NCBI GenBank assembly: GCA_013360585.1
Contig: JABWBH010000021.1
Coordinates: forward strand, 1 to 62,851
Direction: 5' to 3'
Length of the DNA stretch: 62,851 bases
From: Phycisphaerae bacterium
GTDB lineage: Bacteria > Planctomycetota > Phycisphaerae > UBA1845
Made by a program: the position numbers and the translations under genes. This document shows positions 312 through 1,448 of the stretch, piece by piece (the stretch's first letter is position 1; each line of letters begins with the position of its first letter). The notes below the pieces were generated by a model. The model was not told the DNA's origin. It did not search any database and was given only the letters and a program-made list of their open reading frames with translations.

Positions 312-1448
312 TCAATCCAGCCACTGCTTCCGGTCCGCCAGCTTCATCGGCACGTACTCCTCCGTCAGGTACGTCAGCCGCTTGTTGATCATCGCCTCGA
401 CCTCCATCTTGAAGCCGTTGGCGATCATCTTGCGGATTTCCTTCTCCCACGGTTTTTTCCCCGCGAACCACGGGTAATCGAGGATCTGCTTCGCCCGCTT
501 CACGTCGTTGGCATCCAGCTCCAGCTTCACGTCGTCCGACAGTCCGCACCGCTCGTAATCGAAACTCGAGACGCCGATGAACTTCGCCTCGGGCACGGCC
601 ATCCGCTTCGACTCATACGCCAGGTTGATCGATCCCTGCTTGATCACGGAGTAGATGTAGTACCCCCACGGATCGTTATCGAGGAGAACGTACACCGGCA
701 GCTTCAGTTCATAATGCATCCGGAACAGGAGCCGCCGCATTCCGCGCGCCGGCTGCCCGCCGCCGTGCGAAACGATGCATCGGTGCTTCTCCCAGAAGCG
801 GTCCTCGTGAAAGCGCCGCCAGACGGTGTCCTTTTCGACGTGGAGAATGAACTTCGCGTCGCACTTCTTGAACTGCACGACGTCCGGTTCCACGATGCTC
901 GGCACGGCGTAACCCGCACTGCCCATCCGGGCGCAGTCGAGCGTGTTGCCGTCGTCGACCAGCGTGATCGGTCCGACGAGGTTGCCGCGGTTGCTGGCGA
1001 AGATGTGCAGCTCCTCGCGCAGGGAGTTGATCGCCACCTCGAGGTCTTCAAGGATCGGGTCGGACTCGGACTGGTCGTCGAACGTCTTCTCGCTCGTGCC
1101 GCGGATGGTGTGCTTCGCCATGTAGTAGATCTGGCGGATGCTGGCGGTCTTGTCGGCGTCGATGAGATCCTTGCACTTGCTGGCCACCAGCATCGTCTGC
1201 ATGAAGCGCTTCGCCTGCCCGTAGTTGAAGAAGTTGCGCTGCTGCTTGTTGTCGCCCATCTCGATCGTGCGCGACTTCTCATTGAACGCGACGTTCGACA
1301 GCGCCCGGATCGGAATGTCGATCGACGGATCGTGCTGCCGCAGCGCCGTGTCGGCCACGGTGCGGGCGAGTTTTTCCAGCTTTTCCCCGGCGTCCCTGCC
1401 CCGGCGCGTCCCTGACGGCGCTGTGCGCCCCGGATTCTTCCCGGCCAT
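312..1448 (-). CDS. top6A: DNA topoisomerase VI subunit A (Spo11-like)
   Basis: This is the type IIB topoisomerase A subunit, which cleaves both DNA strands through a tyrosyl linkage and works with an ATPase B subunit. The 378-residue product has the winged-helix region with RQIYYMAKHT (catalytic Tyr at about 109, paired Arg at 105). The Toprim domain has VEKD (Glu205) and LLDNDP (Asp257, Asp259), in the same relative spacing as the archaeal enzyme. Length matches the family, roughly 370 residues. I chose the ATG at 1448 because AGGAGG lies 7 nt upstream; a longer frame reaches 1562 but adds only basic low-complexity sequence. No B subunit is in the window. It could sit left of position 1, since 1-311 is empty. 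The enzyme is typical of archaea and plants and patchy in bacteria. The family call is secure; function as a complete enzyme depends on finding the B subunit. Confidence 0.9.
   Translation of the reverse strand: MAGKNPGRTAPSGTRRGRDAGEKLEKLARTVADTALRQHDPSIDIPIRALSNVAFNEKSRTIEMGDNKQQRNFFNYGQAKRFMQTMLVASKCKDLIDADKTASIRQIYYMAKHTIRGTSEKTFDDQSESDPILEDLEVAINSLREELHIFASNRGNLVGPITLVDDGNTLDCARMGSAGYAVPSIVEPDVVQFKKCDAKFILHVEKDTVWRRFHEDRFWEKHRCIVSHGGGQPARGMRRLLFRMHYELKLPVYVLLDNDPWGYYIYSVIKQGSINLAYESKRMAVPEAKFIGVSSFDYERCGLSDDVKLELDANDVKRAKQILDYPWFAGKKPWEKEIRKMIANGFKMEVEAMINKRLTYLTEEYVPMKLADRKQWLD

Follow-up and report, generated by a model that had tools for sequence, protein, structure and literature searches.

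The gene at positions 312-1448 of the window (the whole stretch of 62,851 nucleotides analysed here) probably encodes the cleaving subunit of DNA topoisomerase VI (topo VI), a type IIB topoisomerase encoded on the chromosome, which decatenates in place of topo IV. This view draws on the domains and residues of the encoded protein, on the presence of a B partner elsewhere in the same genome, and on the distribution of topo VI and topo IV over the phylum Planctomycetota.

The top6A gene and its partner

The window is one entire contig (C45) of a 4.2-Mb genome (G000), which is 97% complete and consists of 84 contigs; tRNA and Rfam scans of the window returned no matches. The top6A open reading frame, on the minus strand, runs from an ATG at 1448-1446 to a stop codon at 314-312, and encodes a subunit A of 378 amino acids that is classed below as W type. 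An alternative, longer frame with a GTG start reaches 1562; it is the ATG at 1448 that has the Shine-Dalgarno sequence, an AGGAGG at 1461-1456 of the minus strand with a spacer of 7 nt, which confirms the strong Shine-Dalgarno reported in the first-pass annotation of this DNA. Three topo VI-A domains of Pfam were found on the same strand, each above its own curated cut-off, namely TP6A_N, i.e., the DNA-cleaving winged-helix part (1002-1211; 62 bits), the all-beta Topo_VI_alpha domain (858-986; 28 bits) and the Toprim domain (339-851; TOP6A-Spo11_Toprim, 193 bits), and the NCBIfam model NF003333 scored 545 bits against a cut-off of 465. The best solved relative in the PDB was Top6A of Saccharolobus shibatae (E 4e-78). 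The winged-helix part has its tyrosine, Tyr109 (codon 1122-1124), presumed to be catalytic, which lines up with the YY motif in the Top6A proteins of S. shibatae and M. jannaschii, while the Toprim domain has its Glu205 (834-836) and its Asp-x-Asp, formed by Asp257 (678-680) and Asp259 (672-674). We take these four to be the catalytic and metal-binding residues, and all are invariant across a 17-row alignment in which the window's row is counted. Thus, the earlier description of a full-length, archaeal-type topo VI A with its catalytic residues was borne out.

The B partner had been reported as missing from the window, and this was indeed the case, as an intact topo VI-B gene is located in the same genome on contig C62, at about 18.2-20.1 kb of its 53.9 kb. 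The accompanying suggestion to search for top6B at the left edge of the window was correct in that the genome does have a B gene, and incorrect as to its place; a top6B just beyond the left contig edge was rejected, since the gene sits inside C62, ~18 kb from the nearer end. The idea of A as a relic without a partner was also rejected, since B was found on C62. All Pfam domains of Top6B scored above cut-off (transducer PF09239, 190 bits; HATPase_c, 49 bits; and HATPase_c_3), and the genome therefore holds a B protein with a GHKL ATPase and a transducer. The match to M. mazei Top6B had an E of 3e-151, with aligned blocks covering M. mazei residues 6-368 and 371-486. The H2TH domain of B is a topo VI trait that is missing in the topo VIB-like family; it produced no separate profile match here, and the first block, which should presumably include the H2TH region, has one gap only, of one residue. 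No Pfam domain was detected beyond the transducer of Top6B, in agreement with the absence of the archaeal Ig-like domain from the bacterial B tested, as given in the available portion of PMC11302465.

As predicted from sequence, the window's A and the topo VI-B encoded elsewhere in the genome would form an A2B2 heterotetramer. Topo VI enzymes are characterized as a class by the A2B2 composition, ATP-dependent strand passage and 2-nt overhangs. In the enzyme proposed here, ATP would make the B gate close around one duplex, a second duplex would be cut by the pair of A tyrosines, and the first would pass through before the cut is resealed.

Distribution of topo VI and topo IV in Planctomycetota

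The class sample comprised 150 genomes, i.e., that of the window plus 149 others from its class, of which 96 were good. Subunit A was found in 123 of the 150 and in 84 of the 96 good genomes, counts that include a sub-cut-off match in G117, and B was found in 128 and 83, respectively. With the A match of G117 dropped (A = 122), 118 of the 150 genomes had both subunits, 4 had A only, 10 had B only and 18 had neither, and many of the one-subunit absences fall in incomplete drafts. Since each subunit occurs in about 87% of the good class genomes sampled, top6A is a core gene in the class and not a relic. The first-pass annotation had considered A functional, and the intact residues, the B gene in the genome and this high prevalence all agree with it; the two signs of a remnant that it had named, i.e., absence of any B and loss of conserved residues in relatives, were both looked for, with the result that B was found and the residues were invariant in the 17 rows. 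Its statement that the type IIB enzyme is uncommon in bacteria, which may apply to bacteria at large, did not hold within this class. When 84,980 species genomes were scanned for the A locus, two records stood closest among the best 80 of 574 relatives: Planctomycetota bacterium BroJett003, at 99% amino-acid identity across the portion it contains, and Phycisphaerales bacterium SJ659, at 90%; 76 of these 80 bear Planctomycetota names, and the record titles of the remaining four read Acidobacteria, Deltaproteobacteria, Candidatus Sulfopaludibacter and uncultured bacterium. Judging by these neighbors, the window's genome probably belongs to Phycisphaerae, the NCBI class that includes Phycisphaerales. 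The phylum sample consisted of 392 Planctomycetota genomes, overlapping with the class sample, and 217 of them were good (completeness at least 90%, contamination at most 5%). A was found in 189 of the 392 and in 120 of the 217, and B was present in all 30 A-bearing genomes checked.

The window's genome encodes a single protein of the GyrA/ParC family (PF00521), with the GyrA-box QGRGGKG, and has a single match to the GyrB/ParE family (PF00204); a profile search of this 97% complete genome found no ParC/ParE pair, which leaves it with gyrase and topo VI. For the phylum, a genome was scored as having topo IV if PF00521 and PF00204 each matched at least twice. By this score, which was based mostly on draft genomes and on copy number, the 217 good genomes comprised 9 with both enzymes, 111 with topo VI only, 60 with topo IV only and 37 with neither (Fisher p 3e-18, counted over related genomes that are not independent); three genomes with two PF00521 and one PF00204 (G233, G262, G398) and one with the reverse (G512) were all counted as lacking topo IV. 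When 61 families were classified by majority, 4 had both, 33 topo VI only, 14 topo IV only and 10 neither (p 1e-4). Members with topo VI and no topo IV, as well as members with topo IV and no topo VI, were found together in each of the families f30, f36, f53, f88 and f110; the 9 good genomes with both enzymes belonged to f42, f48, f79, f87 and f110, and a mix of topo VI members and members with neither enzyme was seen in f10, f30, f38, f55, f79 and f93. In the 43 good genomes with an A above the NF003333 cut-off, a second PF00521 match was never seen. The GyrA-box was checked in four genomes and in one partial case (G140, too fragmentary); in three class members lacking topo VI (G132, G136, G147), one PF00521 protein had the box and the other did not, as expected of ParC. 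Topo VI was not found in two families, f65 and f45, which are represented by 20 and 4 good genomes; a single GyrA/ParC-family match was seen in 15 of the 20 and in all 4, respectively, and thus gyrase may be the sole type II topoisomerase in many genomes of these families.

The 9 good genomes with both enzymes and the 37 with neither make clear that topo VI can coexist with topo IV and can also be dispensed with. The phylum-wide near-exclusion supports a role of topo VI as the decatenase in place of topo IV. The topo VI of M. mazei preferentially decatenates, according to the accessible part of PMC8837201, and it complements an E. coli parE mutant, a result that PMC11302465, in the portion available, states as unpublished data of Allen and Maxwell. 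The preference of the M. mazei enzyme and the near-exclusion together favor a role in decatenation, by which topo VI would decatenate the chromosome alongside gyrase and so fill the position that topo IV has in other bacteria. Alternatively, topo VI could be an accessory enzyme of repair or recombination, Spo11-like break formation or mobile-element maintenance, with gyrase alone performing decatenation and the topo IV pattern reflecting shared ancestry. The 37 of 217 good genomes that have neither enzyme, in which gyrase alone can suffice, and the 9 of 217 that have both are in keeping with such a role, but the near-exclusion persists at the family level and recurs in five families, and we regard the accessory role as quite improbable. 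Its mobile-element version is also at odds with the record searches: homologues of the window's A were absent from 50,697 phage records, the only 3 among 72,556 plasmid records were all haloarchaeal, and IMG/VR yielded one match, a contig (IMGVR_UViG_3300037657_000197; L220) with a topo VI B-A pair, the A of which is 69% identical to that of the window. The B of this contig groups tightly with the B of genome G052, and the contig could be of bacterial origin and misfiled, or could represent a provirus. The marks of a mobile type IIB enzyme, i.e., residence on a plasmid, phage or integrated element, were thus not found for this A, which is present in the large majority of the good class genomes. 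Returning to topo VI as the stand-in for topo IV, the Planctomycetota constitute a natural experiment, since some of their families have both topo VI-only and topo IV-only members, which makes replacement of the decatenase testable among relatives.

Gene order and neighbors of top6A

Among the 118 class genomes with both genes, B was directly before A on the same strand in 43 and before A within 6 kb in 7; in 8 the genes shared a contig in a distant position or another order, and in 60 they were on different contigs, which in a draft genome is not proof of separation. Seven genomes with both genes consisted of a single contig, and the two were hundreds of kb or more apart in five of them (G057, G061, G081, G097, G129) and adjacent in the other two (G082, G141). 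In the 80 named loci, which are the best of the 574, B was beside A in 52, always on the same strand; 18 had no B despite at least 2.5 kb of upstream sequence, and 10 were uninformative. In two families, B was before A within 6 kb in none of the genomes with both genes (0 of 23 in f4 and 0 of 17 in f8), most of these pairs being on different draft contigs; in G069, A precedes B at a distance of 4 kb.

Different arrangements were also seen inside the window's genus. G002 retains B before A, with a FitA-like RHH antitoxin and a PIN-domain protein between them, whereas in the window's genome and in G003 A adjoins a GH127 gene, in an arrangement that these two have in common along 3.8 kb (92% DNA identity); A of G003 is likewise an open reading frame. 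As B keeps an upstream gene that is common to all three genomes, it is more likely that A, rather than B, moved within the genus. Overall, the B-A operon seems to have been disrupted more than once, also in the genus of the window, but both genes have been retained. The antitoxin-PIN pair of G002 (L035:6386-7044) is itself an insertion into a top6B/top6A pair.

The sequence that follows top6A in its reading direction is a dispersed repeat at 110-182, near the contig end, as the first-pass annotation had also recognized. It is an imperfect, REP-like palindrome with 27-nt arms and a 19-nt loop, and its 22-base core had 28 matches in the genome at two or fewer mismatches, two of them in the window, vs. 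none for the reversed control. With a GH127 gene and a dispersed repeat as its neighbors, and with A and B on different contigs, the window's A could be imagined as a stray copy without a working partner, decaying since it left the B-A operon. It is to be noted, however, that the checked residues are intact and that none is lost in the 17 aligned rows, that the A-GH127 arrangement is common to G003 of the same genus with the A frame open, and that pairs not in the B-before-A order have been retained across whole families (f4 and f8), all of which make a stray copy extremely implausible.

Subunit ancestry and comparison with known systems

The A homologues of the phylum are of two types, W, to which the window's A belongs, and J, which is close to M. 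jannaschii. In the phylum count, W type means a score above the NF003333 cut-off (63 of the 189 A-bearing genomes), and a few rows below it are W fragments (G504). The J protein of G129 scored 371 bits to M. jannaschii and 164 to S. shibatae; the window's A scored about 265 bits to S. shibatae, 168-177 to M. jannaschii (177 being to a fragment), 176 to Natrinema and 167 to M. mazei, and the window's B scored 485 bits to M. mazei and 285 to S. shibatae. Both subunits were sampled from 49 bacterial genomes or loci (23 W, 26 J), one further W genome, G213, having been left out since its B match was only 312 aa. Amino acid identity of A was 61% within W, 64% within J and 34% between the types; for B, the corresponding values were 60%, 57% and 55%. 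The median B/A distance ratio was 1.03 for W-W, 1.25 for J-J and 0.57 between types, and 592 of the 598 between-type ratios were lower than the 1% quantile calculated from the 578 within-type pairs, the ranges overlapping at the edge (0.43-0.79 vs. 0.64-2.18). This discordance was seen in both halves of A and in all thirds of B, and the picture was no different in an initial, smaller mirror analysis of 29 bacterial pairs or in a quick A tree of 66 rows. The C-terminal third of B, which contacts A, dropped most between types (51.5% vs. 59.9 and 58.9 within), possibly due to co-adaptation to A, and identity of the first third between types was not below the J-J level.

Phylogenetic trees were built with S. 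shibatae, M. mazei and haloarchaea as the archaeal references, and with a fragment of M. jannaschii for A only. A single bacterial A clade was rejected when Saccharolobus was in the set (p 2.9e-6, and 8.4e-6 in a second test) and was not rejected when it was left out (p 0.128); in addition, warnings were issued during tree building for long branches that meet in the A trees and, in the B trees, for a Saccharolobus row that was atypical and very long. Bacterial B formed one clade, with a support of 95/95 in the first tree and 99/94 in the larger one. W was one clade in the larger B tree (100/99), nested among J types, and was not one clade in the first; on the larger tree, the A type changes once. 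A B tree with the split of A was disfavored and not rejected (p-AU 0.185; 0.101).

Two A types with one B lineage are best read as the outcome of one subunit exchange, which gave rise to a topo VI of mixed ancestry. Specifically, the window enzyme would be a natural hybrid topo VI, replacing topo IV, in which an ancestor of the window's clade swapped a Methanococcales-like A for another archaeal A, a scenario to which we assign an even chance. In such a hybrid, Planctomycetota would share one B lineage, the new A being closest, in the present set, to Saccharolobus, and the B-A gene order would have been kept first, the operon being broken later in several lineages. The subunit exchanged could be A or B, and the setting could be the bacterium or the archaeal donor. 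As to direction, W was nested among J in the larger B tree, and without Saccharolobus J as one B clade fits equally well (p 0.499), so that the exchange may have run either way. Both archaeal subunit trees globally follow taxonomy (PMC9348778, as far as the text was available) and archaeal A phylogeny agrees with 16S rRNA (PMC1175954, likewise), which argues against an old exchange in archaea; on the other side, the second A cluster of Allen and Maxwell lies close to a small number of DPANN and Euryarchaeota (available portion of PMC11302465), and an archaeal donor with such an A/B combination may therefore exist.

If no subunit was exchanged, two complete A+B transfers from two archaea would have to be assumed, with a B that evolved more slowly or convergently. 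Allen and Maxwell do infer at least two transfers, from the two clusters that bacterial sequences form for A as well as for B (PMC11302465, in the part consulted), and the B tree with the split of A, the single A clade in the set without Saccharolobus and the warnings on long branches and the Saccharolobus row all allow for such a course. Nonetheless, the between-type B/A ratios are set far apart from the within-type ones in nearly all pairs, the discordance extends over both A halves and all B thirds, and bacterial B is one clade in both trees, and we consider two complete transfers rather unlikely.

A transitional state, i.e., W and J together in one genome, was not found in 16 genomes that were chosen for double, partial or weak matches; 13 loci were typed, and small pieces in G075, G084, G105 and G117 were left untyped. 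The typed extra matches were pieces of one type in G268, G280, G394 and, partly overlapping, G429; second J copies in G164 (with one internal stop codon) and G201; and a second, partial copy of W type in G041, while the weak match in G211 revealed no A on typing. Three genomes of family f69 (G222, G311, G283; L257, L258, L260) encode, in addition to a full-length W-type A, a short A-like protein with roughly 30-34% identity to W, for which the printed alignments all begin after the catalytic tyrosine. If the A/B discordance is true, a type IIB enzyme can have its cleaving half and its ATPase half recombined, which may bear on how Spo11 gained other B-like partners; if the enzyme is truly a hybrid, one kind of B works with two A types that are 34% identical, and the halves are swappable in evolution.

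All A domains and active-site residues of archaeal topo VI (S. shibatae 2ZBK, M. mazei 2Q2E, M. jannaschii 1D3Y) are shared by the window enzyme, and its B partner likewise has GHKL and transducer domains; it differs in that it belongs to a bacterium with gyrase, and in that its A is nearest to S. shibatae and its B to M. mazei. Among bacteria, the Pirellulales and Sedimentisphaerales families presumably belong to the same phylum as the window's host. Bacterial topo VI, including that of Planctomycetota, has already been published, and in Pirellulales and Sedimentisphaerales, as in the window's genome, gyrase is present and topo IV is lacking (PMC11302465, available portion). In the same portion, Allen and Maxwell (2024) likewise describe two bacterial A clusters, one of them near Methanococcales, in a set of 17 bacteria, five from Planctomycetota families, compared to the 392 phylum genomes and the overlapping 150 class genomes used here. 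They found topo IV lacking in the sampled Planctomycetota families and present in some other topo VI bacteria, and the title of that section states that an association is not necessary (PMC11302465, same portion). The present data extend the absence of topo IV with topo VI to the scale of the phylum, exceptions apart.

Topoisomerase VIII, or Mini-A, is reportedly another type IIB family, described by Takahashi et al. in 2020. It is located on free or integrated plasmids, as stated in the part of PMC11302465 consulted, whereas the window's top6A is widespread in its class and has a full-size B. The available portion of PMC11302465 reports neither A/B discordance between the two clusters nor a phylum-scale count against topo IV, and the publications found in our literature search, in the portions available, contained no description of mixed subunit ancestry or of topo IV exclusion across Planctomycetota. 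Thus, relative to that portion of PMC11302465, the present analysis adds the near-exclusion of topo VI and topo IV, the repeated breakage of the operon, and the two A types with similar B partners.
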